A stretch of DNA of 64,000 nucleotides from Rhodospirillaceae bacterium (lineage in GTDB: Bacteria; Pseudomonadota; Alphaproteobacteria; UBA8366). Each line of letters starts with the position of its first letter. Position 1 is the first letter of the stretch. Of the stretch, positions 4,309-53,453 are shown one piece after another. A model generated the notes under the pieces. It saw only the letters and a list, made by a program, of their open reading frames with translations. It did no database searches and was not told the origin of the DNA. The translations under genes were made by a program, and so were the position numbers. The stretch covers positions 1 through 64,000 of the forward strand of contig PAZH01000010.1 of assembly GCA_002716125.1 (NCBI GenBank). Direction: 5' to 3'.

Positions 4309-5163
4309 ATGGATGTCGGAATCGTAATGCCTTGCTCGGCGATCACCCCGCCGGATTTGATCGCGGAAACGGCGAAGGCCATTGAAGAACGCGGCTTCGC
4401 GTCGATCTGGGCACCTGAACACGTCATCTTTTTCGAAGAGTACCAGTCGAAGTATCCATACGCGGATCATGGGAAGCTGCTCGGTTTCGATCACGGTATG
4501 ATGGAGCCGTGGACGACCTTGAGCTTCGTCGCGTCCAACACAAGGCGCGTGAAGCTCGGCTCCAGCATCTGTCTCGTGCCGCAGCGCAATCCGGTCTATA
4601 CCGCCAAACAAATCGCCGATGTCGATTTTCTCTCAAATGGGCGGGTCATCTTTGGGGTTGGTGCCGGCTGGCTCAAGGAAGAGTTCGACGCCCTCCAAGT
4701 TCCTTTTGAGCGCCGCGGTGCACGCACCAGCGATTATATTAAGGTCATGCAGGCGCTTTGGACGATGGAGAAACCGTCTTACGAGGGCGAATTCTATAAG
4801 CTCCCCGCTTGCACCCAGAGCCCAAAACCCGTCCAGAAGCCGCATCCGCCGATATTCTTCGGTGGAGAAAGCCGGCCGGCACTCCGGCGGGTCGCTCAAC
4901 TCGGGCAAGGTTGGATGGGCGCAAGCCTCATGCCGGAAGATCTGCCCGAGAAACTTACGCTGTTAGATGAATTGCTGGCCGAGGCGGGACGGCGCCGCGC
5001 GGATATCGAGATATACACACTGCCGAACCAAGCGCCGAAAGCGGACCTTTTTCCCCGCTACGAGGACCTTGGCGTCAAACAAGTCATTCATCTCGTACCG
5101 ATGAAGAATATTGATGACGTCCGACAACGCCTCGACACAATGGCGAAAATGGCCTTCGGATAG
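4309..5163 (+). CDS. LLM-class F420-dependent-type oxidoreductase
   Basis: A 284-residue LLM-superfamily TIM barrel. Key segments are WAPEHVIFF near residue 35, the strand VKLGSSICLVPQRNP, DFLSNGRVIFGVGAGWLKEEF and PKPVQKPHPPIFFGG. The 'GVGAGWLKEEFDALQVPFERRG' type of sequence is characteristic of the subfamily usually annotated as putative F420-dependent, although alphaproteobacterial members may use FMN. The gene is divergent from the dehydrogenase at 4239 with 69 bp between. The C terminus DDVRQRLDTMAKMAFG is complete. The substrate is unknown. Confidence 0.88.
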   Translation: MDVGIVMPCSAITPPDLIAETAKAIEERGFASIWAPEHVIFFEEYQSKYPYADHGKLLGFDHGMMEPWTTLSFVASNTRRVKLGSSICLVPQRNPVYTAKQIADVDFLSNGRVIFGVGAGWLKEEFDALQVPFERRGARTSDYIKVMQALWTMEKPSYEGEFYKLPACTQSPKPVQKPHPPIFFGGESRPALRRVAQLGQGWMGASLMPEDLPEKLTLLDELLAEAGRRRADIEIYTLPNQAPKADLFPRYEDLGVKQVIHLVPMKNIDDVRQRLDTMAKMAFG

Positions 5164-5535: not shown

Positions 5536-6564
5536 CTAAAGGCCGCTTTTAACTTTCGGTGCGACTTCCGCGGCGAACAACCGCATACAATCTAATGTGG
5601 CTTCTTGCGGCATGCCGGCCCAATCCATGCTCATGATAAGGTGATTGGTTCCGACTTTGCGGTGCAGATCGATGATCTGCTCTGCTACCTCGTCGGGCGA
5701 GCCCAGCAAGAACCGATCTCCAATGAGTTCGTCGAAGGCCTGGTCGAGTTTACTGTCGTCATCCGGCAGTTCGTCGCTCTGACCCCAATCGGTATAATTC
5801 TCGTATTTGCCGGCAAGGTACGGGCCGCACAATCGAAGCGCTTCGGCCTTTGTCGGCGCCACAAACACTTCGCGCCGCATTGGCAGTTCGTCCGGAAACG
5901 GCTTATCCGCCGCATCAAGCGCCCGTTTATAGATTTCCATCTGCCGAATGACCGTGGAGATTTCGTTGTGCGGGTTGATATACCAACAGTCACCCATGCG
6001 GGCCGCCCGCTCGATTGCTGGATCGGCATTGGCGCCAATCCAAATTGGCGGATGCGGGTTTTGAAGCGGCTTCGGGAGGCAGGTCGCACCGTCGAGTTCA
6101 AAATGCGAACCGACCATATCGACGGAGTCCTCTGTCCAAAGACGTTTTATCGCAATTAAGTTCTCTTCGAACCGCTTCGCGCGCTCGCGTCGATTTGTAC
6201 CGAAAGCCTTTAACTCGACTTCTCGATACCCCAAGGCTGCGCCAACGATGAGCTTACCGCCGCACATGACGTCGATTGTCGCGAGCTGCTCAGCTATATC
6301 GAGCGGTTTGTGAAGCGAAAGCAGAATAATTCCGGCATTCAAACGAAGGTTCGGCGCTTCTGCCGAAAGACGGGCGAGAATTGGGAATTGCTGGAACGCC
6401 TGGTAAGGGGCTGTGCTGTAATGGGACGTTTTTGTGAGTGAATCGTAACCGAGTTCGTCCGCCAACCGCACCACCTGCAGCAGGTCTTCGAATTTCTGCG
6501 TGATGTCCGCTTCCATCGGATATTGGGTGCGCAACGCCAAACCGAATTGAAATGTCTTCGCCAT
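5536..6564 (-). CDS. LLM-class flavin-dependent oxidoreductase
   Basis: A 342-residue luciferase-like monooxygenase family protein. Typical segments are LADELGYDSL with TKTSHYS in the active-site loop, LNAGIILLSLHKPLDIAEQLATID, GGKLIVGAALGYREVELKAFG and PKPLQNPHPPIWIGANADPAIERAARMGD. The ATG at 6564 follows an AAGGAGGCAG-like ribosome site. It is convergent with the small zinc-ribbon gene and 19 bp downstream of a secreted phosphoesterase gene on the same strand. Nothing nearby names the substrate. Confidence 0.88.
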   Translation of the reverse strand: MAKTFQFGLALRTQYPMEADITQKFEDLLQVVRLADELGYDSLTKTSHYSTAPYQAFQQFPILARLSAEAPNLRLNAGIILLSLHKPLDIAEQLATIDVMCGGKLIVGAALGYREVELKAFGTNRRERAKRFEENLIAIKRLWTEDSVDMVGSHFELDGATCLPKPLQNPHPPIWIGANADPAIERAARMGDCWYINPHNEISTVIRQMEIYKRALDAADKPFPDELPMRREVFVAPTKAEALRLCGPYLAGKYENYTDWGQSDELPDDDSKLDQAFDELIGDRFLLGSPDEVAEQIIDLHRKVGTNHLIMSMDWAGMPQEATLDCMRLFAAEVAPKVKSGL

Positions 6565-35528: not shown

Positions 35529-36872
35529 CTATTTTTGTCGATAACCGGACAAACCAAGATTCTCTCGCAGCGTCGTGCCTTTGTATTCCTTGTGATAGAG
35601 GCCACGGCGCTGCAATTCGGGCACGACATAACGGGTAAATTCCTCATAAGCGCCCGGCATGTGGGTCGCGGCGAGGACATAGCCGTCGCACGCGCCTTCG
35701 ACAAACCATTCCTCTAGGTTATCTGCTACTTGTTTCGGATTACCAACAAAATGTGGCGCCTCCCGAATTGTGCCGCGACCGCTGAATTCAACAAAGTCCG
35801 CAAGCGTTGGATTCTGCTTGCCGCTCATCCGGATAATACGATCCAATATTCCGCGCAAACCGCTGATGCCTTCCAGTTCTTCATCCGAGAACGGTTCATC
35901 CATTTGTTTTGTTGCAAAATCGAAATTAAGCGCCTCCGACAAGAGCGCCAGGCCGTCTATCGGTTTCGCGAGACTGTCGATATAAGCGTATTTGTCCTCG
36001 GCAATGCTTTGGGTCTCACCCACCGTTACGTAGACCGCCGGGGCAATGGTAATCGTGTCCGGATCGCGGCCCAGCCTCTCGGCGTCCGCCCGCATTTCAC
36101 TGCGGACCTGTTTTCCCTGCTCAACACTGGTCAAAATCGTGAAGATCACTTCGCCCCACTCGATCGCGAATTGGCGTCCGCGTCCGCTTTGCCCCGCCTG
36201 GATGACAACCGGGTGGCCCTGTGGCGATTGTGGCACCGTGAACGTGCCCTTGTTTTGGAACCAGTCGCCAGCGTGTTCGGTCCGATGGACTTTCGCGGGA
36301 TCGGCAAAGACACCGTTCGCTTTGTCGAGTTGAATAGCGTCCGGCTCCCACGCATTCCACATATCGATGACATTCTTCATTAACTCATCGGCACGGTCGT
36401 AGCGCCGGTCGTGTTCGATCGTCCCGGCGGCCCCCATGTTGAAAGCTTCGGAGTCGTTGAGCGACGTCACCACATTCCAACCGGCGCGGCCGCCCGTCAT
36501 ATGATCGAGCGTCATAAAGGTCCGGGCAATATGAAAGGGTCCGTAATAGGTGGTCGAGCAAGTCGCCGCGAGGCCAAGACACTTGGTCCCCATCGCCATC
36601 GTCGCCAGGATCGGCACCGGATCCATTTTGACGACCCGCACACCGTTGCGAACGGATTCAGCATGATCGGCTCCATAGATGTCCGGCATCGCCAATCGGT
36701 CGTCGAAAAAGCCAAGATGGAACTTCCCGTCCTCGAGCGCCCGGGCGATACGGGCGTAATAGGCGGGCGACATGAAGTCACCGGCGGATTCACTGTGCCG
36801 CCAGGAGGCCGGATAGTTGGAACAGTTCTGCGCTTGCAGGAAACCCACCATCACAATCTGTCTGTCCGCCAT
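35529..36872 (-). CDS. NtaA/SnaA/DszA-type FMN-dependent monooxygenase
   Basis: A 447-residue large-type LLM enzyme. ASWRHSESAGDFMSPAYYAR, HLGFFDDRLAMPDIYG, DHMTGGRAGWNVVTSLNDSE followed by AFNMG and VIQAGQSGRGRQFAIEWGE are diagnostic of the nitrilotriacetate, pristinamycin and dibenzothiophene-sulfone monooxygenase family, which uses FMNH2 from a separate reductase. Such proteins attack C-N or C-S bonds of xenobiotics. No dedicated flavin reductase is adjacent. It is divergent from the SDR at 36960 (87 bp) and convergent with the HMGL-like gene. Confidence 0.9.
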   Translation of the reverse strand: MADRQIVMVGFLQAQNCSNYPASWRHSESAGDFMSPAYYARIARALEDGKFHLGFFDDRLAMPDIYGADHAESVRNGVRVVKMDPVPILATMAMGTKCLGLAATCSTTYYGPFHIARTFMTLDHMTGGRAGWNVVTSLNDSEAFNMGAAGTIEHDRRYDRADELMKNVIDMWNAWEPDAIQLDKANGVFADPAKVHRTEHAGDWFQNKGTFTVPQSPQGHPVVIQAGQSGRGRQFAIEWGEVIFTILTSVEQGKQVRSEMRADAERLGRDPDTITIAPAVYVTVGETQSIAEDKYAYIDSLAKPIDGLALLSEALNFDFATKQMDEPFSDEELEGISGLRGILDRIIRMSGKQNPTLADFVEFSGRGTIREAPHFVGNPKQVADNLEEWFVEGACDGYVLAATHMPGAYEEFTRYVVPELQRRGLYHKEYKGTTLRENLGLSGYRQK

Positions 36873-41222: not shown

Positions 41223-41297
41223 ACAAGACAGCCCGCCTTCACAGGCGACCTATTGGCTCTACCATCATTCGCACGGATTTCCTGGGGAGGATGTGTC

Positions 41298-42419
41298 ATG
41301 AAGTGGGGAACATTCAGTCTTAGCCAAATTCCGGACTTGAGCCGCGTTCCGGAGAATTTCGAGACCGATTTCGAGCAGTTTCAGCTTGCCGAAGAGCTGG
41401 GCTTCGACACGATTTGGATCGCCGAGCATTTGTTCTCGAGCTATGGGGTCGTGACGTCCTGCCAGGTGCTGGCAGCCGCCATCGCAAAAGCGACAAAAAG
41501 GATCAAAATCGGTATGGCCGTCGTCGTGATGCCATTCAATCATCCGCTGCGTACGGCATCCGATTTCGCTTTGGTGGATATCCTCTCCGAAGGACGGTTG
41601 CTGTTCGGTGCTGGACGGGCTTATCAACCCCACGAATTCGTCGGTCTCGGCATTCCGATGGAAGACAGTCGGGGTATGTACGAAGAAGCAATGGACATCA
41701 TGCTGAAGGCTTGGGGGGATGAGCCGATCACCCATGACGGAGAATTCTGGACCATCCCGCAGCCGACCGATGTCCTACCGAAACCGGTTCAAAAACCGCA
41801 CCCACCGCTCTACCAAGCCTGCATCTCGCCCGATAGTTTCAAGACGGCGGCGCAGAAGGGATTAGGCCTCCAGCTGGCTTCGCCATTCTCCTACCGCACC
41901 TATCGTGAAGAATGGGTCGACAAGATCGAGGAAAGCATCGGCGTCTATGAAGCCGAGTGTGAGAAAGCCGGTCACGACCCGAAAGGAGCGGAGCGGATGA
42001 TGTTACTGCCCTTCTTCGTCCATGAATCGCAGGACGAAGCCAAACGCATCGCGCAGGAACGGATGGAATGGTTCTACGCCAAGGTCACGGCCAATCAGAA
42101 ATCGGTCGGCGGCCAGCCAGACCTCATCAAAGGCTATGAGCTCACCATGGCCGAAAGCAAAAAGACGCTTGAAGGCGGCTATCTAAATTTCGACAAACTA
42201 TATGAAAATGGTGCGGCGATCGCCGACGACCCAGCGACGTGCGCCGAAAAATTGAACGAACTGCGTGAGCGTCTCGGCATCACCGAGTTCGTGCTCTGGA
42301 CGAATATCGGCGGCATGCCCGCCGCGGAATCAAAGGCGGCGATGAAGCTAATCATGAACGAGGTCGCCCCCCGCGTGAACGAGATGGAAGCGGCGGCGAA
42401 CGCGAAAGCCGCTGAATAG
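41298..42419 (+). CDS. LLM-class flavin-dependent oxidoreductase
   Basis: A 373-residue LLM-family enzyme. It opens MKWGTFSLSQIPDL, then LGFDTIWIAEHLFSSYGV holds the active-site AEH, GMAVVVMPFNHPLRTASDFALVD is followed by GRLLFGAGRAYQPHEF, and PKPVQKPHPPLYQACIS precedes the C-terminal part. These are the features of true bacterial-luciferase-like alkanal or aromatic monooxygenases. The ATG at 41298 follows GGGGAGG by 7 bp. It is 10 bp before a MaoC-type hydratase, so oxygenation coupled to CoA-ester hydration is plausible. Confidence 0.9.
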   Translation: MKWGTFSLSQIPDLSRVPENFETDFEQFQLAEELGFDTIWIAEHLFSSYGVVTSCQVLAAAIAKATKRIKIGMAVVVMPFNHPLRTASDFALVDILSEGRLLFGAGRAYQPHEFVGLGIPMEDSRGMYEEAMDIMLKAWGDEPITHDGEFWTIPQPTDVLPKPVQKPHPPLYQACISPDSFKTAAQKGLGLQLASPFSYRTYREEWVDKIEESIGVYEAECEKAGHDPKGAERMMLLPFFVHESQDEAKRIAQERMEWFYAKVTANQKSVGGQPDLIKGYELTMAESKKTLEGGYLNFDKLYENGAAIADDPATCAEKLNELRERLGITEFVLWTNIGGMPAAESKAAMKLIMNEVAPRVNEMEAAANAKAAE

Positions 42420-43889: not shown

Positions 43890-44789
43890 CTAGTCGTCCG
43901 TCTTTCCCAAGACACGTTCCCGATGAAACGTATAGAGTCCGCTTGCAATAATGATTGAGGCGCCAATCACGGTTGGCATATCGGGCAAGTCGTCAAAAAA
44001 GACGTATCCGAGGATCGTCGACCACACGATGGTGATATAGCTCAACGGCTGGATGACACTGGCGGGTGCCAAGGCTAAAGCCTTGATGAGCATTGCATGC
44101 CCTAAGACACTCAAAACCGCGATACAAAGGATCAACAAAAGCCCGTTCATATCCGGCGTTTGCCAGAAGAACGGCCCGACAATGCTCATCGCAACGAGAC
44201 CAACGAGGCCGGTATAAAGAACTGTCGTGTCCGGATGATCGTGACGCGCCGCCACGCGGGTGAGAACCTGATACAGTGCGTAGCCGCAAATACCAAAGGC
44301 CGGCAGGAGCAGCATCGGCTCGAACGAGCCGAAGCCGGGCCGGATGATGATCACCAATCCGATTAATCCAATTCCAATGGCGGTCCAACGCCGAACGCCC
44401 ACCTTCTCTTTCAAGATCGGGACTGCCAACGCGGTGGCCACCAATGGACCGATCCCGGCCACCGCCTGTACGTCCGCCAACGGCAAATGCCGAAACGCGA
44501 CGATGAAAATCAGAATCTCCCCGCAGAGCAGCAGACCTCGGAATATCTGCAAAACCGGTGCGTTCGAATGGAGCGCGCGCCATCCGTGCCGGCGGACTGT
44601 CACCGCCAGCCCGTAAGCGGCAAAGACCATGTAGCGAATCCATAATATCTGCGGCGCGGAGTAGGTCGCGCTTACAAATTTCGTCAGCGCATCCATCGAC
44701 GCAAAAACGCCGGTCGTCGCAAATGCGATGCTTAACCCTGCGTGCGTTCCGGCAGCGTCGTCACGCGCGCCAATATTTCCCGATGTCAT
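43890..44789 (-). CDS. EamA/DMT-superfamily transporter
   Basis: A 299-residue ten-helix inner-membrane transporter with the double EamA layout. The last helices read YITIVWSTILGYVFFDDLPD, then ASGLYTFHRERVLGKTDD. The first repeat starts FATTGVFASMDALTKFVSATY. It is the last gene of the leftward run from the TetR-controlled promoter and lies 34 bp after the 2-hydroxyacid dehydrogenase. With the MFS gene two positions upstream, it gives the run two predicted transporters. The ATG at 44789 is chosen because upstream residues are unlike the family. Confidence 0.88.
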   Translation of the reverse strand: MTSGNIGARDDAAGTHAGLSIAFATTGVFASMDALTKFVSATYSAPQILWIRYMVFAAYGLAVTVRRHGWRALHSNAPVLQIFRGLLLCGEILIFIVAFRHLPLADVQAVAGIGPLVATALAVPILKEKVGVRRWTAIGIGLIGLVIIIRPGFGSFEPMLLLPAFGICGYALYQVLTRVAARHDHPDTTVLYTGLVGLVAMSIVGPFFWQTPDMNGLLLILCIAVLSVLGHAMLIKALALAPASVIQPLSYITIVWSTILGYVFFDDLPDMPTVIGASIIIASGLYTFHRERVLGKTDD

Positions 44790-44823
44790 TGAATGCCTGT
44801 TCCGTGTGGAATCACGAGGCCAA

Positions 44824-45870
44824 TCAATATCCGCGCGCCCAATCCAGGACGTTCTCCAGCGGACGGCCGGCAATATAGGCTTCGAGGTTGCGGCAGAAGA
44901 GATCGATTTGCCGGCTGCTGCGAATATCGGTTGCGGCGGAGATATGCGGCGTGAAAAGGACGCGGTCGTCTGCCCAAAGTTCCGGATCGGGTAAGCGTTC
45001 GAATTCGCCCACATAAACGTCTAGGCCGACCCCCCGAAGTTTTCCCGCCTTTAGTGAGTCCTTGAGAGCGGTCTCGTCGACAATTTCCCCGCGCGCCAAA
45101 TTACAGATAATGGCCCCGTCCTTCATCGCCGCTAGAGTCTCTGTCCCGATCAAGCCTTCCGTCTCCGGCGTCCACTGACAACAAACGGAGACGAAATCCG
45201 CCTCAGGCAAAATCTCCAACAATTTATCCGGCGTATAGACTGCATCGAATCCGTCGAGCGGCGCATTGGCGGTGCGGCGCGTTCCAATCACCCGCATACC
45301 AATCCCTTTGCAGAGCTTGCCCACGTCCTGGCCGATGCCGCCAGCACCGATGACACAAACCGTTTTGTCCTGAATTTGGATGGGATCGTAGGCGAGACGC
45401 TCGAAGTCGCCGGCCGTCCGATCGGCAACCGCTTGGTGGAAACCGCGCGCAAAGTAGAAGAACGTCCCAACCGTCCATTCCGCCATAGACTGCGTATTGC
45501 CAAGTCCCCGCGATGTCGTCACGACGACGTCGCTCTCCCAGAGGTCACCGTTCAGGAGGTTGCTTGCGCCCGCCGGCGTCTGATGAAACCATTTCAATTT
45601 CGGCGCGCGGCCTCTCACATCGAAGGGATAAGGGAAGCCACACAGAACGATTTCCGCCTCGGCCAAAAGCGCATCCCGCTCTTGGCGGGTGCCTTCGCCT
45701 TGCAAGTTCGGCGGCAGATACGAACGCGACGTATACTCAGGCCATGTATCTCGATACTCGCCGTGAAACCAGTTTGGTGCCATGACTAGCTCAATCGAGG
45801 GATCGATCCCTTCGATACGCGCACGACCGGCATCCGAGAGCGGGATCATAGAAAGAATATTCACAGTCAT
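44824..45870 (-). CDS. D-2-hydroxyacid dehydrogenase
   Basis: A 348-residue NAD(P)-dependent dehydrogenase of the phosphoglycerate/glyoxylate-reductase family. The nucleotide loop is CVIGAGGIGQDVGKLCKGIG, the catalytic Arg is in CNLARGEIVDETAL, the Glu region reads DVYVGEFERLPDPELW, and the catalytic His is in LFTPHISAATD. It reduces a 2-keto acid or oxidises the hydroxy acid. The start overlaps the MFS stop (ATGA at 45867-45870), so it is translated with that transporter and most likely acts on the imported compound or a breakdown product. Confidence 0.88.
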   Translation of the reverse strand: MTVNILSMIPLSDAGRARIEGIDPSIELVMAPNWFHGEYRDTWPEYTSRSYLPPNLQGEGTRQERDALLAEAEIVLCGFPYPFDVRGRAPKLKWFHQTPAGASNLLNGDLWESDVVVTTSRGLGNTQSMAEWTVGTFFYFARGFHQAVADRTAGDFERLAYDPIQIQDKTVCVIGAGGIGQDVGKLCKGIGMRVIGTRRTANAPLDGFDAVYTPDKLLEILPEADFVSVCCQWTPETEGLIGTETLAAMKDGAIICNLARGEIVDETALKDSLKAGKLRGVGLDVYVGEFERLPDPELWADDRVLFTPHISAATDIRSSRQIDLFCRNLEAYIAGRPLENVLDWARGY

Positions 45871-47153
45871 GGTGTCGCATCCTTCGAGACAGATCGCACG
45901 GGATCGCGCAGAAACAGAAATGCGATCACCGCAAAGAACAATGGCATGGCCCCAACGCCGACAAGCATCGGATCGTAACTACCAAAATAGTCTTTCGATA
46001 TTGCAAGTGGTAGGGGGCCAAGCGAGGCGCCGATAACCGTAATCGTCTGCCCAACGCCTTGGATACGACCGAGGTGCGTGCGTCCGAAATAGCGCGGCCA
46101 CATAAAGGATACGTAATTCATGCTGACCGCATTCGAAAGGCCGAAAACGACCGCAAAGAGGACTGCCGTCCATAATCCGGAGATGACCGAGGCGAGCAAC
46201 AACGATGCCGTGAGAACAATGAGGCCTGCCGCGACCATTCGCTCGGTCGGGGCCTGATCGAGCATGCGACCGACGACAGGCATCATCACGATCATGGTAA
46301 CGGAAGAGACGGCGAAGCATTTGGTGGCGATGTTTGGCCCCAAGCCTTGATCGGCGAAGATCGAAACTTGATAGAAATGCAGTGACGTTACCAGCATCGA
46401 GAGCGTGAACAGCGACGCGGCCACAATATAAAAGGCCGGCGCATGCAAAGCTTCCGATAGCGTAAAATCCATCTGTGGTCCGACGCTTTCCACCCCGTCC
46501 TCATCCGTCGACGAGCGATTTACGCCATCTGGATGCAATCCGACGTCCTCGGGTTTACTGATCGCCAGGATCACAATAGGCGGTAAGACGAGAATCCATG
46601 TCGTAACACCAATCCAAAACCACGCCTCTCGCCAGCCAACCCATTCGATCAACCACTGCGACAATTCCGGGTGAACCGCCATCGAGATGCCAAAACCCAG
46701 CGTCATCAAGCCGAGTGCCGTCCCTCGTTTCCGGTTGAACCATTGAGAGACCATGTTGGACGAGCCCATCATCAGCGAGCCTTGTCCCAGAAACCGGAGG
46801 GCGGCGAAACCGATGGCAAGCCAAAAAAGTCCGCCGACCAGTCCGAACGCGGCGCACGCGGAACCAAACAACAGCGCGACAACAGCTAACATCCGTTTCG
46901 CGCCGGCACGATCGAGGAACCAGCCCATCGCCGGCAAACAAAGCGCTGCCACCAACGTCGCCAGTCCATACGCCGATGCCATCTCGGTTTGCGTCAATCC
47001 GAGATCGAGCGCAATAGGCCCGATAAAGACGCTGAACGTATGCGATTGTGCCGGGCCACTCGCAAAGATACCGAGCATGCCGACACCAACAATGACCCAG
47101 CCATAAAAGAATCGCCGGCCGAGACGTTCGACCAGAGAATAAGAGGATGCCAT
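45867..47153 (-). CDS. MFS transporter (monocarboxylate/oxalate-type)
   Basis: A 428-residue twelve-helix major-facilitator protein. The first loop GWFLDRAGAKRMLAV is the conserved MFS motif between helices 2 and 3, GLMTLGFGISMAVHPELSQW comes from the first half, and SAYGLATLVAALCLPAMGWF opens it. The second half includes YFGRTHLGRIQGVGQTITVI. This is the pattern of the oxalate/formate and monocarboxylate antiporter branch, so an organic acid is the likely substrate. It overlaps the downstream dehydrogenase start by four bases and lies 24 bp after a GST gene. Confidence 0.9.
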   Translation of the reverse strand: MASSYSLVERLGRRFFYGWVIVGVGMLGIFASGPAQSHTFSVFIGPIALDLGLTQTEMASAYGLATLVAALCLPAMGWFLDRAGAKRMLAVVALLFGSACAAFGLVGGLFWLAIGFAALRFLGQGSLMMGSSNMVSQWFNRKRGTALGLMTLGFGISMAVHPELSQWLIEWVGWREAWFWIGVTTWILVLPPIVILAISKPEDVGLHPDGVNRSSTDEDGVESVGPQMDFTLSEALHAPAFYIVAASLFTLSMLVTSLHFYQVSIFADQGLGPNIATKCFAVSSVTMIVMMPVVGRMLDQAPTERMVAAGLIVLTASLLLASVISGLWTAVLFAVVFGLSNAVSMNYVSFMWPRYFGRTHLGRIQGVGQTITVIGASLGPLPLAISKDYFGSYDPMLVGVGAMPLFFAVIAFLFLRDPVRSVSKDATP

Positions 47154-47177
47154 AAAGGTCCTTCGCGTCGGTCCCGA

Positions 47178-47813
47178 CTATTGCTCCGGATAACAGGCGG
47201 CGAAGGCAGACTGATAAGCCGGGCGTTTGATCGTCCGTTCCCGATACGCCAAGAGGCGTTCCGGCACCGGTTGACCGTAGCGAATAGCCCAGGTCAGGAC
47301 AGAGGTCAAAAAGATATCCGCGGTCGTGAACTGCTCACCCAGCAGATAGGGACGACCATCCGAAAACTCGGCGTCAGGCACCGCAATCTGACGGATAAAA
47401 TATTCACTCGCGCAGTCGACCGCGGCCGGTGCTTCACCGTAAATCTCGGGCAAATCGCCATGCCGCCGAATGACATAGAGACTCGTGCCATCCAGCTCCA
47501 TGGCGACGAAATAGCTCCACTCGTCACAGCGCGCACGACCGGCGGAATCTGTCGGCAAGAGCCGGCAATCGTCACTATCATACGTACGCGCCAGATAGAT
47601 GACGATGGCGCAGCTCTCAAACAGCTTTAGATCCCCGTCTTGAAAGACCGGGATCTTCGTGCGCGGACTGACAGCCTGGAACTCCGGGGTCTCCATCGCC
47701 GGCGTGCGTGTGCGGACGGGCTTGGTCTCATAATCCAGACCAAGTTCATGCAACGCCCAATGAACGCGAAATGCACGCGCTGAGCCGATTCCCCAAAGGG
47801 TACGCTGGCTCAT
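47178..47813 (-). CDS. glutathione S-transferase family protein
   Basis: A 211-residue GST. The N-terminal thioredoxin-like domain runs LWGIGSARAFRVHWALHELG and then AVSPRTKIPVFQDGDLKLFESCAI, holding the glutathione-binding 'ES' loop; Ser7 in GIGSAR may be the catalytic residue. The helical domain contains PYLLGEQFTTADIFLTSVL. In catabolic clusters such GSTs isomerise or dehalogenate intermediates (as in maleylacetoacetate-type chemistry). The start overlaps the D-aminoacylase stop by four bases. Its context in a Rieske/amidohydrolase locus supports a catabolic job rather than general stress defence. Confidence 0.85.
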   Translation of the reverse strand: MSQRTLWGIGSARAFRVHWALHELGLDYETKPVRTRTPAMETPEFQAVSPRTKIPVFQDGDLKLFESCAIVIYLARTYDSDDCRLLPTDSAGRARCDEWSYFVAMELDGTSLYVIRRHGDLPEIYGEAPAAVDCASEYFIRQIAVPDAEFSDGRPYLLGEQFTTADIFLTSVLTWAIRYGQPVPERLLAYRERTIKRPAYQSAFAACYPEQ

Positions 47814-49501
47814 GCGGCAGCTTGACCATTGCGGAGCACACCGCCCGGCAAATCGCCATCAGGTGCCACAGCATCAGCACCATTTTCACGCAATACGGTA
47901 CCGTTTACGACAACCGCCCGGACCCCTTTTTCGCGCGCGATCAAACGATCAGCACCAGCCGGGAAATCAAACACCCGTTCCAAGCCGCCCGCTCCAACGG
48001 TTTCTGGATCGAAAACGACGACATCGGCAGGGCGATCCTCCGACAATAGCCCGCGATCCGAGATGCCGGCGACCTCGGCGGGCCGCGACGTCAGCATCCG
48101 AACCGCTTCCTCAAGGGTGAAACTTTGCTTTTCCCGCACCCAACGGCCCAAGAAATAGGTCGGTAGGCAGGCGTCGCAGAGCTGGCTCGCATGAGCCCCG
48201 GCGTCCGACAAACCAAGAACCGTGGCGCCGCTCTTCAACAAAGGCTCGACTTCGTCTTCGTTATGGTTCGCCACCGGCATCCTGAAACGCGTTTCAAGGT
48301 CGGTCTCGAGCGCCAGGTCGAGCATAAGCTCGACCGGCGTTGTACCCTTTTCCCGGGCGACATCGGCCAAAACCTTCTCGTCCAGATCGCCATTCTTTTG
48401 ATGTTGCGAGATGACGATATTGTCGAACGCGCTCTTGAACTCCTGACGCGATCCCTCGATCCGATCCGCAAAGGCCTTCCGGAATTCAGCGTCGGCATAA
48501 ATCTTCTTCTTACCGTCGGCGTCTGCTGCAGCCACAGGCTTCATCACCGAGAACGGCTCGAATAGGAACGGCGCCGCCATTTGATATTCAAAATTCAAAG
48601 GCCGCGGCGTGACTTGCGGATAGACACGGTGACCGTCGGCCACAATCGCCTCCGATTTCGCCAACTGTTCTTCATGGTCGCCCTTGCCGAGGGCCAATCC
48701 CGCCAAGAGTGCTGTCCACGTTACGGTACAACCGCTTTCACGGGCGAGATCAGGATACTCGTCGATAAAGAGGTCCTTACCGGCTGTCGCCTCAATTAAG
48801 CCGCCGCCCGCTTCGCCGACCGCCTTGGCGAGGCGAAAGACTTCTTCGACCTCGCAAGCGCGACTCGGCACCGGCCGGCCTTCATAACCCACGTGCGTTC
48901 CCGCGCGTGATGTCGCGAAACCGAGCGCACCGTCTTTCATCCCTTGCTTGAGAATCTTGCGCATTTCCTCGATCTCGTCTTCCGTCGCGGCACGCTCCGT
49001 CGACGCCTCGCCCATGACATACATGCGCAACGGGGTGTGCCCTAAGAGCACCGCGACATTGATCGCCGAACCGAGACTATCGATCGCGTCGAGATATTCA
49101 CCAAAGGTCTCGAACGGCCAATCCTCGCCCAAACCGGCTTTGAGGGCCGGCACACTCATCCCCTCCACCTTCTCCAAGGTACGGACGATCATGTCTCGGT
49201 GTTCCGCACGCGTTGGCGCCACACCGAAGCCACAATTACCGAGAACCGTCGTCGTGACGCCGTGCCATGGCGAAATGCTCATCATCCGGTCCCAGATGAT
49301 CTGCGCGTCATAGTGCGTATGAATGTCGACGAAGCCAGGCGCGACAACCGCGCCTTCGGCGTCGATGGTCTTGTCGGCGCTGTCCGGCGCATCGCCAAGC
49401 GCGACGATCCGTCCACCAGATATGCCGACGTCGCCGCGGTAGCCCGGATTGCCACTGCCGTCGACAATCGTGCCGCCCGTAATTTTCAGATCGTAGGTCA
49501 T
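47810..49501 (-). CDS. N-acyl-D-amino-acid deacylase-type amidohydrolase
   Basis: A 563-residue metal-dependent amidohydrolase. ITGGTIVDGSGNPGYRGDVG is the N-terminal beta-domain, PGFVDIHTHYDAQIIWD has the metal His pair, HGVTTTVLGNCGFGVAPT follows, and later LGLSDAGAHASQLCDACLPT places the Asp. This is the D-aminoacylase/amidohydrolase-3 type, which removes acyl groups from N-acyl-D-amino acids or opens related amides. Length is a little above the usual 480-560. The substrate is open. It overlaps the GST gene downstream (ATGA) and follows the ACMSD-like amidohydrolase by 19 bp. Confidence 0.88.
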   Translation of the reverse strand: MTYDLKITGGTIVDGSGNPGYRGDVGISGGRIVALGDAPDSADKTIDAEGAVVAPGFVDIHTHYDAQIIWDRMMSISPWHGVTTTVLGNCGFGVAPTRAEHRDMIVRTLEKVEGMSVPALKAGLGEDWPFETFGEYLDAIDSLGSAINVAVLLGHTPLRMYVMGEASTERAATEDEIEEMRKILKQGMKDGALGFATSRAGTHVGYEGRPVPSRACEVEEVFRLAKAVGEAGGGLIEATAGKDLFIDEYPDLARESGCTVTWTALLAGLALGKGDHEEQLAKSEAIVADGHRVYPQVTPRPLNFEYQMAAPFLFEPFSVMKPVAAADADGKKKIYADAEFRKAFADRIEGSRQEFKSAFDNIVISQHQKNGDLDEKVLADVAREKGTTPVELMLDLALETDLETRFRMPVANHNEDEVEPLLKSGATVLGLSDAGAHASQLCDACLPTYFLGRWVREKQSFTLEEAVRMLTSRPAEVAGISDRGLLSEDRPADVVVFDPETVGAGGLERVFDFPAGADRLIAREKGVRAVVVNGTVLRENGADAVAPDGDLPGGVLRNGQAAA

Positions 49502-49520
49502 GTCCCTCTCCCCGCCGGCA

Positions 49521-50624
49521 CTATTGGACGCTCAAGCCATATAGCTCCGAAACGTTCTCGTGCAGGATGCGATCCTTCTCCCACTGGGTCATGTCCGCCG
49601 TGTGCTCCGCGAGCATCTCCTGACTGTGCGGCCAGGTCGCGTCGCTATGCGGAAAGTCGTTGGCCCACATCAAACGCTCAACATTCATGTGATCGCGCAG
49701 TTGGAACGCGGTCCAATCGTCTTGAAATGTCATGTAGACGTTTTCGCGAAAGTACTCACTCGGCAGCTTCGCCATCTCGTCGCATTTGAGCCAATAGCGA
49801 TGCCGCTTATAAGCATGGTCCATTCGATACATGAAGTGAGGTGCCCAACCCGCGTCGGCTTCGACGCAGACGAGCTTCAAATTCGGATGCCGCTCGAACA
49901 CACCGCCGAAAATGAACGTACCTATGATATCCTGGTTGCCTCGAATGATCGTTTGGAACGCATTGATCTTTGGCCCGCGATAGTCTCGCAAGTTGTCCTT
50001 CTTCGACGTTAAAATGTGGAACGAGAGCGGCATCTCCATTTCGACGACCGCTTCATAGAACGAATCGTAGTCAGTGTGGTGATAATCCTCATGTCCCGGC
50101 TCGCCCGGCAACATCACGCCCTTAAAGCCCATCTCCTTCGCCTTGCGGACTTCCTCAATCCCTTTCTCCGGCGTCTCCATGACGAGCTGCGGCATCCCGA
50201 ACAAACGGTTCGGCAGGCCTTCGCAGAAATCCTTCAGCCAACGGTTATACGCATCGAAGCAAGCGCGTTTGTAATCCAAATCTTCGTGATTGCAGAGAAC
50301 CATGCCAACGGACGGGTAAATGATTTCCGCCGCAACACCGTCACGGTCCTGATCGGCTGCCCGCGCCTTCGGGTCCCAGCCACCACGGTGCAACTCTTCG
50401 AACTTGGCGCCCCGCGTGCTTAATGTCGACGGATCCTTACCCGCGGCTGCCACAAGGCTCATCGGGATCGAATTCTTGATCCCTTCGATGACATACACTT
50501 CGCCGCGATCCGGATCGTCAACCACGTGCGGCGCCGTATCTTTATACTTCGCTTCGATGTAGTCGATGTAGAGATTCGGCGGCTCGGTAATATGAGAATC
50601 CGCAGAAATTGGGCGCTTTGGCAT
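49521..50624 (-). CDS. amidohydrolase-2/ACMSD-like decarboxylase or hydrolase
   Basis: A 367-residue TIM-barrel metalloprotein. The start ISADSHITEPPNLYIDYIEA gives the Asp-x-His metal pair. The middle has GFKGVMLPGEPGHEDYHHTD with FYEAVVEMEMPLSFH, then FIFGGVFERHPNLKLVCVE and the end LMWANDFPHSDATWPHS. This is the layout of the ACMSD/amidohydrolase-2 family, which includes resorcylate, isoorotate and carboxymuconate-semialdehyde decarboxylases. It is the first gene of the leftward run and shares a promoter region with the TetR gene. GGAGAG lies 7 bp upstream of the ATG at 50624. Confidence 0.88.
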   Translation of the reverse strand: MPKRPISADSHITEPPNLYIDYIEAKYKDTAPHVVDDPDRGEVYVIEGIKNSIPMSLVAAAGKDPSTLSTRGAKFEELHRGGWDPKARAADQDRDGVAAEIIYPSVGMVLCNHEDLDYKRACFDAYNRWLKDFCEGLPNRLFGMPQLVMETPEKGIEEVRKAKEMGFKGVMLPGEPGHEDYHHTDYDSFYEAVVEMEMPLSFHILTSKKDNLRDYRGPKINAFQTIIRGNQDIIGTFIFGGVFERHPNLKLVCVEADAGWAPHFMYRMDHAYKRHRYWLKCDEMAKLPSEYFRENVYMTFQDDWTAFQLRDHMNVERLMWANDFPHSDATWPHSQEMLAEHTADMTQWEKDRILHENVSELYGLSVQ

Positions 50625-50642
50625 GTTTGCTCTCCGGTTTTT

Positions 50643-50656
50643 CCAACAAACGTTGG
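50643..50656. promoter_or_regulatory. palindrome CCAAC-AAAC-GTTGG, probable operator
   Basis: A perfect 5-bp inverted repeat with 4-bp spacer, widened by TTTTCC on the left and GGAAAA on the right. It lies in the 81-bp gap between the divergent amidohydrolase and TetR starts, directly before the amidohydrolase ribosome site. Its size and position fit a TetR-family operator. Binding is inferred. Confidence 0.55.
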
Positions 50657-50661
50657 ATGGA

Positions 50662-50690
50662 AAATAGAATTGACAGACCGTATTTGTCAA
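50662..50690 (-). promoter_or_regulatory. leftward sigma-70-type promoter with embedded palindrome
   Basis: On the minus strand TTGACA (50690-50685) is followed after 18 bp by TATTTT, close to the sigma-70 consensus. The same TTGACA is mirrored by TGTCAA, forming TTGACA-N9-TGTCAA at 50670-50690. So the -35 box is part of a second inverted repeat, where a bound repressor would block both directions. The rightward promoter for the TetR gene is less clear. Confidence 0.5.
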
Positions 50691-50705
50691 GGTTAAGACG
50701 GACCT

Positions 50706-51356
50706 GTGATTAAGGACAAAATTAAGACATCTAAGCCGCAGGAAAAGAGCCAACGGGCCCGTAAGTCGGAAGTCACCCGGAAGCGAATTTTGGATGCGTC
50801 CGCCGAATTGTTCGGCGAGCAGGGCTATTTCGCAACGACCCTCAGACAAATCGCCAAGCGCGCGAAAATCGACGCAGGAAGCATCTACTACTACTTCGAT
50901 TCCAAAGACGAAATTCTCGACGAAGTTATGGAAATTGGCATACGCGCCGTGGCAGACGCCGTTAAAGAAGCAGTCGATGCCCTACCGGACACCACAACGA
51001 ACAGAGAAAAACTGGAGGCCGCCACCAAGGCACATCTGAACACCCTCTTGAAGTTCAACGCTTACACCTCCGCCAACATTGCCATTTTCGCGCAAGTTTC
51101 GAGCGAAGCGCAGAATCGGAACCGAAAGCTCCGGCAAGACTATGCGGCCTATTGGCATGAACTGTTCGATGCCGCGCAGAAGTCCGGAGAGATTTCGCCA
51201 ACGACCGATTTGAGCCTTGTCCGTCTTTTCCTATTGGGATCGATAAACTGGAGCATGCAGTGGTACGATCCAAAGAAGAAATCCATCGACGAACTGGCGC
51301 TGTCATTCTGTGAAATGATGTTCGATGGAATTTCAGGAGCAAATACAGAATGCTGA
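50706..51356 (+). CDS. TetR-family transcriptional regulator
   Basis: A 216-residue repressor. The N-terminal helix-turn-helix is complete: TRKRILDASAELFGEQGYF, TTLRQIAKRAKIDAGSIYYY, FDSKDEILDEV (about residues 25-75). The C-terminal ligand domain is helical with LLKFNAYTSANIAIFAQVSS and a conserved-looking MQWYDPKKKSIDELAL, as in acyl-CoA- and steroid-responsive TetR proteins. The start is GTG at 50706. It overlaps the Rieske gene by 7 bp, so it is cotranscribed with its probable target. It likely controls both directions through the palindromes at 50643-50690. Confidence 0.9.
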   Translation: MIKDKIKTSKPQEKSQRARKSEVTRKRILDASAELFGEQGYFATTLRQIAKRAKIDAGSIYYYFDSKDEILDEVMEIGIRAVADAVKEAVDALPDTTTNREKLEAATKAHLNTLLKFNAYTSANIAIFAQVSSEAQNRNRKLRQDYAAYWHELFDAAQKSGEISPTTDLSLVRLFLLGSINWSMQWYDPKKKSIDELALSFCEMMFDGISGANTEC

Positions 51357-52666
51357 CGGCAGAAGAAAACGAACGCCTCACCCGGATCGGTCCCGGCACG
51401 CCGATGGGCGGGCTCATGCGGCTTTACTGGCTGCCGTTCTACCCGGGCGGTGCACTACCGGCAGACGGGCAGCCCAAGCGCGTAAAAATTCTCGGCGAGG
51501 ATCTCGTTGCCTTTCGCGATAGCGACGGCCGTCCAGGACTGATCGCAAATGCCTGCCCGCATCGCGGCGCCCCACTGATGTTCGGACGAAATGAAGAGTG
51601 TGGTATCCGCTGTGTCTACCACGGTTGGAAATTCGACGTTGAAGGCAACATTCTGGACATGCCGGCCGAGCCCGAAGGCAGCCGGCTGAAAGAGCGTGTC
51701 AAAGCGAAAACCTATCCGTGCGTCGAACGCAATGGCGTACTCTGGACCTATATGGGCCCGGAGGATACGCCGCCGCCGCTGCCGGAGATCGAATGGAATC
51801 TTGTGCCGGAGGAAAATGTTGTCGTCACATTCCGCGTCCAAGAGTGCAACTGGCTGCAGGCGCTCGAAGGCGAAATCGACTCCGCGCATGCACCGATATT
51901 ACACTCACGAATCGACAACAAAGGATCGATTAACGATTGGATCGCAGCGAACGACCTGCGACGCACCTTTAAGATTGAGCGTCAACCGTTCGGTCTCAGT
52001 ATAGCGTCACGGCGTAAACTAGAGGACGATCGAATGTACTGGCGGGTGAACCAGTTCCTACTGCCGTTCTGGACCCTGGTACCGCCCCAATCGAAGTTTC
52101 CGGAATTGAGCGGGCACGCCTGGGTGCCGATAGACGACGAGCACACATTGTGTCTGATGTTTTCCTACACCCCGAAGGAAGAGTTCTATCCGAAAAGCCG
52201 CGTAATCTTGGAGGAAGGCTTCAAAGGGCGCGAGACCGGGCATGCCAGCCGAAGCTGCTACGAGGACAAACCGGCTTCGACCCCTTATGCCGACTTTTGG
52301 ACCAAGTTTAACCCGGAAAACGGCTACCACTTCGATTACGCCGCACAAGAGTCGACGTACTTTTCCGGCCTGCCTGGCCTCTGGGTGCAAGACGCGGCGT
52401 GCCAATCGGGCGTCATGCCGATTTACGATCGCACGATGGAAAACTTGTGCGTCAGCGACGCCGGTGTCGCGTCCGCAAGACGCCTTTTACTGGAAACGCT
52501 GGACGACTATCACAACAAACATGAACCGCCCCTAGGGGCGATCCAACCCGATACATTCATGGCTCGCGCCGTTTCGGTTACGCTGCCAAGCGACAGCGAT
52601 TGGCTGACCGCTTGCACGCCATATATGAAAGCTCAACTCGGCGCCGACTTCGGATATACACCTTGA
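51350..52666 (+). CDS. Rieske non-haem iron oxygenase, large subunit (phthalate-dioxygenase-like)
   Basis: A 438-residue ring-hydroxylating-type oxygenase. The Rieske cluster ligands are ACPHRGAPLMFG (Cys69, His71) and CGIRCVYHGWKFD (Cys88, His91). The catalytic domain has EIDSAHAPILHS, giving the two His of the mononuclear iron site. The single-component layout and the AHxxxLH spacing resemble phthalate 4,5-dioxygenase and related demethylases. A reductase component must come from elsewhere because none is adjacent. It starts within the tetR stop region, with AGGAG upstream, and is followed 26 bp later by an SDR. Confidence 0.9.
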   Translation: MLTAEENERLTRIGPGTPMGGLMRLYWLPFYPGGALPADGQPKRVKILGEDLVAFRDSDGRPGLIANACPHRGAPLMFGRNEECGIRCVYHGWKFDVEGNILDMPAEPEGSRLKERVKAKTYPCVERNGVLWTYMGPEDTPPPLPEIEWNLVPEENVVVTFRVQECNWLQALEGEIDSAHAPILHSRIDNKGSINDWIAANDLRRTFKIERQPFGLSIASRRKLEDDRMYWRVNQFLLPFWTLVPPQSKFPELSGHAWVPIDDEHTLCLMFSYTPKEEFYPKSRVILEEGFKGRETGHASRSCYEDKPASTPYADFWTKFNPENGYHFDYAAQESTYFSGLPGLWVQDAACQSGVMPIYDRTMENLCVSDAGVASARRLLLETLDDYHNKHEPPLGAIQPDTFMARAVSVTLPSDSDWLTACTPYMKAQLGADFGYTP

Positions 52667-52691
52667 ATTTAATCCTGCTTGCGAGGTTCTC

Positions 52692-53453
52692 ATGCGACTA
52701 AAAGACCGCGTTGCCATCGTGACAGGCGCCGGGAGCGGCCTCGGTGCCGGCATTGCCCGACGCTTTGCCGAAGAAGGAGCACATGTCGTTTTAGCTGACT
52801 TGAACGGCGCGAATGCCGAATCCGTCGCGGAGGAAATTCGCCAAGGTCAGGCCAAGGCTATCGCGGTTGAGATGGACGTCACAGATTATGATGCCGCAGG
52901 TGATCTCATCGCGCGCACGGTCGATGAATACGGAACGATCGACATCCTCGTAAATAGTGCGGGGACAAGCCGTCACATGACGTTTCTCAATGCGAAGCCA
53001 GAAGATTTCCAGGCCATCATGAAAGTGAACTTGGAAGGAACAATGTATTGCGGTCAACACGCGGGCCGCGTAATGGTCGAAAAGGGGTACGGGCGGATCG
53101 TCAACATCGCCTCCATCTCAGGCGAGCGCGCTGGGATCGGGCGGACCGGATACGGCGTCTCCAAATTTGCGGTCATCGGTCTTACGAAGCAAATGGCGCT
53201 TGAGCTCGGCCCCCAGGGCGTGACCGTGAATGCGGTGGGTCCCGGCCCTGTCGACACGCCATTGACACAAGTTGCACATTCCGCAGAAACCCGGCGCGCC
53301 TACCTCGATCTGATTCCGCTCGGACGTTACGGGAAAGTGGAGGAGATGGCCGATGCCGCTACATATCTCGCGGGCGAACAGGCGGCCTATGTGAACGGTC
53401 ATGTGCTTTTCGTCGACGGCGGCTTCGTTTCCGTCGGCATCCAAAAGGAATAG
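52692..53453 (+). CDS. short-chain dehydrogenase/reductase
   Basis: A 253-residue classical SDR. The cofactor site is AIVTGAGSGLGAGIARRFAE, NSAG is at the usual place (VNSAGTSRHM), VNIASISGERAG carries the catalytic Ser, and YGVSKFAVIG the Tyr-x3-Lys. GPGPVDTPLTQVAHS and the C-terminal NGHVLFVDGGFVSV finish it. It is the last rightward gene of the TetR locus, so it could oxidise a cis-dihydrodiol or alcohol made by the Rieske enzyme. A terminator-like hairpin follows 20 bp after the stop. Confidence 0.92.
   Translation: MRLKDRVAIVTGAGSGLGAGIARRFAEEGAHVVLADLNGANAESVAEEIRQGQAKAIAVEMDVTDYDAAGDLIARTVDEYGTIDILVNSAGTSRHMTFLNAKPEDFQAIMKVNLEGTMYCGQHAGRVMVEKGYGRIVNIASISGERAGIGRTGYGVSKFAVIGLTKQMALELGPQGVTVNAVGPGPVDTPLTQVAHSAETRRAYLDLIPLGRYGKVEEMADAATYLAGEQAAYVNGHVLFVDGGFVSVGIQKE

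Follow-up and report, generated by a model that had tools for sequence, protein, structure and literature searches.

We found that the locus at 43,890-53,453 of the window (the whole 64,000-nucleotide stretch that was analysed) has at its centre a predicted TetR-family repressor and two neighbouring amidohydrolase-fold proteins, AH2 and AH3. The main gain from the analysis is that one of these two 'amidohydrolases' is probably an oxygenase of a rare class, with a conserved partner. Dinuclear oxygenases of the amidohydrolase fold are a rare and recently recognised class, and only a handful have been characterised. Annotations as 'amidohydrolase' are routinely taken to mean a hydrolase, and here a widespread, co-conserved pair holds a likely O2-activating dinuclear enzyme. 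The source is a marine bacterium, and the locus is probably a gene set for the breakdown of an organic acid. Our preferred reading, to which we give a probability of about 0.6, is a substrate-inducible catabolic island with TetR and the AH2-AH3 pair at its heart, working as a whole by the mechanism proposed below.

The nine open reading frames, their overlaps and two promoter palindromes were found where a preliminary description had placed them, and every one of its family calls was borne out by Pfam (Table 1). The two arms diverge from a spacer of 81 bp between the AH2 start (50624) and the GTG start of tetR (50706). In the rightward arm, tetR and the Rieske gene overlap by 7 bp (tetR end 51356, Rieske start 51350). 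In the leftward arm there are 4-bp overlaps between AH3 and the GST gene (47810-47813) and between the MFS and 2-hydroxyacid dehydrogenase (2-HADH) genes (45867-45870), with gaps of 19 bp between AH2 and AH3, 24 bp between GST and MFS, and about 34 bp between 2-HADH and EamA (given the EamA start at ATG 44789). From this spacing, a single transcript running from AH2 to EamA is plausible. The top NCBIfam match of the MFS protein was an L-lactate MFS family, with a score under the family cut-off.

Table 1. Genes and predicted regulatory elements of the locus (positions in the window).
Feature	Positions	Strand	Basis
EamA-family transporter	43890..44789	-	PF00892; start set at in-frame ATG 44789
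D-isomer 2-hydroxyacid dehydrogenase (2-HADH)	44824..45870	-	PF02826 (2-Hacid_dh_C)
MFS transporter, monocarboxylate/oxalate-antiporter like	45867..47153	-	PF07690 (MFS_1)
Glutathione S-transferase (GST)	47178..47813	-	PF02798
AH3, Amidohydro_3 protein, D-aminoacylase fold	47810..49501	-	PF07969
AH2, Amidohydro_2 protein, predicted dinuclear oxygenase, PtmU3/AibH2 type	49521..50624	-	PF04909
Predicted TetR operator TCCAACAAACGTTGGA	50642..50657	.	sole TCYAAC-N4-GTTRGA match in 4.78-Mb genome
Predicted AH2 promoter, TTGACA - 18 nt - TATTTT	50661..50690	-	10/12 consensus matches
TTGACA-N9-TGTCAA, read as two divergent -35 hexamers, one on each strand	50670..50690	.	
TetR-family regulator (TetR_C_24)	50706..51356	+	PF00440, PF17932
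Rieske non-heme iron oxygenase, alpha-only, intact	51350..52666	+	PF00355 + PF19301 (LigXa_C)
SDR-family dehydrogenase	52692..53453	+	PF13561

When we examined related genomes, AH2 orthologs were present in six other genomes of the order (64-86% identity, the 86% one being a fragment) and in 21 other genomes of the class (roughly 58-71%). In 18 of the 26 related loci from Alphaproteobacteria, the gene immediately downstream of AH2 encodes an AH3 homologue (58-73%), and this adjacency spans several families; against the core reading, 7 of 20 class-level AH2 orthologs have no AH3 next to them. A TetR ortholog (at least 55% identity) was found in 6 of the 7 order genomes that carry AH2, at 55-71%, and in none of the 37 that do not, where the top match reached 38%. 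In two of these genomes (G026 and G032) the regulator gene diverges from AH2; in two others (G020 and G029) it lies behind AH3 in convergent orientation. Genes on the related GC-rich contigs were called by codon-position composition, ORF length alone having given antisense artefacts. Matches to AH2 on plasmids were of 27-31% only, with no close orthologs, and a literature search on adjacent amidohydrolase 2 and amidohydrolase 3 genes returned nothing relevant. There is a hint that the two families are linked beyond these orthologs, as G026 also carries, at locus L159 (8034-10805), a distantly related paralog of AH2 (30%) in convergent orientation with a paralog of AH3 (54%).

Since TetR-AH2-AH3 recurs with other neighbours elsewhere, it is by its genomic distribution the conserved core, and Rieske-SDR and GST-MFS-2HADH-EamA are local additions. 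Whether these additions belong to the same function can be read in another way. Two or more independent functions might meet at one promoter region, with the Rieske-SDR and GST-MFS-2HADH-EamA genes as unrelated arrivals beside a TetR-AH2-AH3 module; we regard this as a possible though clearly less probable alternative. The separate distributions of the modules across genomes fit it, as does the turnover of the flanks, with an enolase-superfamily gene in the slot behind tetR in G026 and G032 and an FMO-like gene behind AH3 in G026. However, the 7-bp and 4-bp overlaps tie the added genes to the transcripts of the core, and a 2-hydroxyacid dehydrogenase and a monocarboxylate-type transporter would suit steps downstream of a hydroxylase.

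The regulator itself has a helix-turn-helix domain, and a conserved palindrome is present in its predicted target promoter. The palindrome CCAAC-N4-GTTGG (50643-50656) extends to TCCAACAAACGTTGGA, and the extended form, TCYAAC-N4-GTTRGA, is very probably the TetR operator. It also occurs just upstream of AH2 in G020, G026, G029 and G032, beginning 43-45 bp ahead of the AH2 start codon, so that AH2 promoters have it at 5 of 5 loci with an adjacent TetR and at 0 of 22 others. Judging by a reversed-pattern control, chance alone should produce this motif about once per genome, and the evidence is therefore one of position and not of count. When the spacer was aligned with those of G026 and G032, an identical block surrounded the motif, while in G020 and G029 both arms are altered together (C to T, G to A) and the palindrome is kept. 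Perfect palindromes with 5-bp arms number 5 in the spacer, here counted as 82 bp (overlapping ones included), against 0.98 expected in base shuffles, a count reached in 1.3% of shuffles. One genome counts against our best explanation, as G017 has AH2-AH3 with no TetR ortholog and no operator. The idea of a TetR-controlled divergent locus is nevertheless well supported, and action through the CCAAC palindrome gains support from this phylogenetic footprint.

A second palindrome, TTGACA-N9-TGTCAA, had also been proposed as an operator. Each of its two arms forms a consensus -35 hexamer, one for either strand, and the arms are conserved with a spacer of 9 bp in the window and 8 bp in G026 and G032. 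This element is thus better read as two divergent -35 boxes. The predicted AH2 promoter is the top-scoring site of the region; promoter-like sites show no excess in the region taken as a whole. With this promoter, the operator would come immediately after the AH2 -10 box, and from this position we infer that TetR acts as a repressor.

The earlier labels 'ACMSD-like' for AH2 and 'D-aminoacylase type' for AH3 hold as fold families and mislead as functions. By sequence, the solved structures closest to AH2, which has the PF04909 fold, are PtmU3 (6omp, E 2.9e-45) and DitZ, for which our literature search found no paper. The AlphaFold model of AH2 is confident (pLDDT 91.7), and its top structural match was again PtmU3 (TM 0.84/0.87), followed by DitZ, with SfbO and ACMSD entries lower. 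As ACMSD entries rank under PtmU3, DitZ and SfbO by both sequence and structure, an ACMSD-type decarboxylase is not supported. PtmU3, AibH2 and SfbO are oxygenases of this fold with Fe2 or Mn/Fe cofactors (PMC10811679, PMC10401708). In AibH2 the metal ligands are Asp25, His27, His211, Glu265, Asp337 and His340, with an outer Asp342 (PMC7782822). AH2 has all six, as D9, H11, H203, E255, D323 and H326, which is the ligand set of an amidohydrolase-related dinuclear oxygenase. Its D328 corresponds to Asp342 of AibH2 and Glu313 of PtmU3, and is a seventh, invariant acidic residue. The seven residues are conserved in 36 orthologs (one alignment row being truncated at the N-terminus), and in the same alignment the mononuclear LigW lacks the last two (the H326 and D328 equivalents). 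With the full dinuclear ligand set and PtmU3 as the closest match, AH2 is most likely a dinuclear (Fe2 or Mn/Fe) oxygenase and probably not an amide hydrolase. A small Rieske protein adjoins 90% of AibH2-like genes (PMC10401708) and is typical of them, though not strictly defining; when the window and the related loci were scanned for motifs, neither such a ferredoxin nor a reductase turned up near AH2, which counts against the oxygenase reading.

AH3 has the D-aminoacylase fold (AlphaFold pLDDT 86.3), and its best Foldseek matches were 1v4y, 3gip and 1m7j. Its H61, H63, C90 and D433, the equivalents of the HxH motif, Cys96 and Asp366, are invariant in 18 orthologs, although the stretch 432-444, the Asp included, is poorly modelled (pLDDT below 50). 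Between residues 204 and 436 there was no conserved His across the 18 orthologs, and the HIRNE stretch of 3gip aligns opposite LIEAT. The equivalents of His220 and His250, which we take to be main metal-site ligands of D-aminoacylase (1m7j/1v4y), are therefore missing, and the name D-aminoacylase should not be applied to AH3. It is doubtful that the two proteins together make up one oxygenase, with AH3 as an altered-site Amidohydro_3 subunit that would serve the dinuclear hydroxylase AH2 as AibH1 serves AibH2, and with no dedicated ferredoxin; such a pair would be a new branch of amidohydrolase-fold oxygenases, widespread in Alphaproteobacteria.

A decaying copy of the locus appears to be present in a same-genus genome (G001, a fragmented draft). 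At the syntenic place (L237), PhyH and SDR genes are kept at 85% and the GST gene at 71%, while the tetR and Rieske genes have been lost. The interval from SDR to GST is occupied by a 242-aa in-frame ORF (L237 3205-3933) that joins AH2 residues 1-97 to AH3 residues 411-563. In this remnant, D9, H11 and E14 of AH2 are replaced by N, Q and T, and the altered ligands among these argue for real decay. Apart from this remnant, the order's other GST orthologs are not found near AH2.

The Rieske protein has the CxH...CxxH cluster ligands and D-H-H site of an alpha-only oxygenase, with C69, H71, C88, H91, D177, H180 and H185 invariant in 49 sequences. Its nearest solved structure is 7fhr (E 3.7e-178), for which our literature search found no paper. 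Scanning the genome collection yielded about 48 loci with a relative at 57-72% identity, and at none of them was AH2, an AH3 ortholog, or the window's TetR or MFS, a neighbour; two AH3 homologues of distant relationship (33%) are present at one locus (L020), and a distant GST lies about 10 kb off at another (L037). In Bradyrhizobium, Variovorax, Paraburkholderia and others the Rieske gene is often followed by PDR-type reductase, CoA-transferase III and thiolase genes, while among the closest marine relatives the neighbours vary (a ribosomal S2 gene, TauD, enoyl-CoA hydratase). As the relatives' neighbours differ from those in the window, a conserved Rieske neighbourhood was rejected as the finding. 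One of these marine relatives (68%; L003 9321-12249) is preceded by its own, different regulator of the TetR_C_24 type and followed by a PDR-type reductase. The auxin (indole-3-acetate) oxygenase IadD consists of an alpha and a beta subunit, has IadE and IadC encoded next to it and uses its own reductase (PMC10374108), and with neither a beta subunit nor a reductase in the locus this identity was also rejected. The bacterium's own genome has no PDR-type reductase, a weak FNR-like match outside the window (G000:C10:79361-79945) being the only one. With 15 matches to the window's Rieske in the genome against a single PF00175-type reductase match (G000:C10:79637-79945), the Rieske proteins presumably share electron donors, or electron supply is of another type.

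The preliminary description had taken the locus as one regulated pathway with two amide-cleaving enzymes. A single co-conserved pathway is not supported, as the Rieske relatives lack these neighbours, TetR-AH2-AH3 recurs without this Rieske gene, GST orthologs of the order stand apart from AH2, and SDR and PhyH persist in G001 after TetR and Rieske are gone. With oxygenase ligands in AH2 and two metal histidines missing from AH3, most of the ground for a substrate with an N-acyl or amide group falls away. We hence consider it improbable that the Rieske enzyme and two true amidohydrolases form a single regulated route for an aromatic or lactone acid of the N-acylated or amide-bearing kind. In favour of that route are the tight packing, the common 81-bp promoter, the hydrolase superfamilies of AH2 and AH3, and the fact that G001 has lost TetR, Rieske and most of AH2/AH3 together; that loss is contiguous, however, and so weak evidence of joint function, and no close relative associates the Rieske gene with the others.

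Our best guess for the substrate is an organic acid that the cell would process in the form of its CoA ester. Near AH2-AH3 in 23 relatives we counted acyl-CoA ligases (7), acyl-CoA dehydrogenases (7), enoyl-CoA hydratases (6) and GSTs (7), counts that are not independent, many loci being from one lineage. The substrate of PtmU3 is CoA-linked (PMC7782822), and the solved regulators similar to the window's TetR include KstR2 and fatty-acid regulators; together with the CoA-type neighbours, these suggest the guess. Elsewhere in the window, ORFs at 230-1174, 4309-5163, 5536-6564, 35529-36872 and 41253-42419 resemble luciferase-like flavin monooxygenases (by sequence reading mostly, not family search), and sit beside genes of the CoA-transferase III, acyl-CoA dehydrogenase, PhyH and TauD types.

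In the substrate-inducible island that we prefer, a TetR dimer on the operator would block the AH2-AH3(-GST-MFS-2HADH-EamA) transcript when inducer is absent, and the divergent tetR-Rieske-SDR promoter would share the same 81 bp. An inducer, perhaps the organic acid or its CoA ester, would relieve the block. AH2 would then probably activate O2 at its dinuclear Fe2 or Mn/Fe site and hydroxylate an aliphatic C-H bond, and AH3 probably hydrolyses the product of AH2 or acts as its partner. The Rieske and SDR enzymes may add an oxidation followed by a dehydrogenation, and these two, like the 2-hydroxyacid dehydrogenase, GST and transporters, would be lineage-specific additions. With a predicted operator and a conserved partner at one locus, it should be straightforward to look for the inducer and the substrate and to test which metals are used.

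Among known systems, the nearest kin of the window's Rieske protein are 7fhr ('putative phthalate 4,5-dioxygenase alpha') and relatives in the Bradyrhizobium/Variovorax/Paraburkholderia group; many relatives are followed by PDR-type reductase and CoA-transferase/thiolase genes, all absent from this locus. AH3 shares the fold, HxH, Cys and Asp of D-aminoacylase and N-acyl-D-glutamate deacylase (1m7j, 3gip), and differs from them in the two histidines. AH2 resembles AibH1H2 and SfbO in the six AibH2 ligands and the outer Asp, but has no adjacent small Rieske ferredoxin, and its neighbour is an Amidohydro_3 protein in contrast to the AibH1-like PF04909 partner of AibH2. We know of no Amidohydro_3 partner for PtmU3 either. 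PtmU3 remains the closest PDB entry to AH2 in sequence and fold, and all metal ligands are common to both; the two are only 28% identical, however, and PtmU3 is a biosynthetic enzyme, the diiron monooxygenase for platensimycin and platencin, with a CoA-linked diterpenoid as its substrate.
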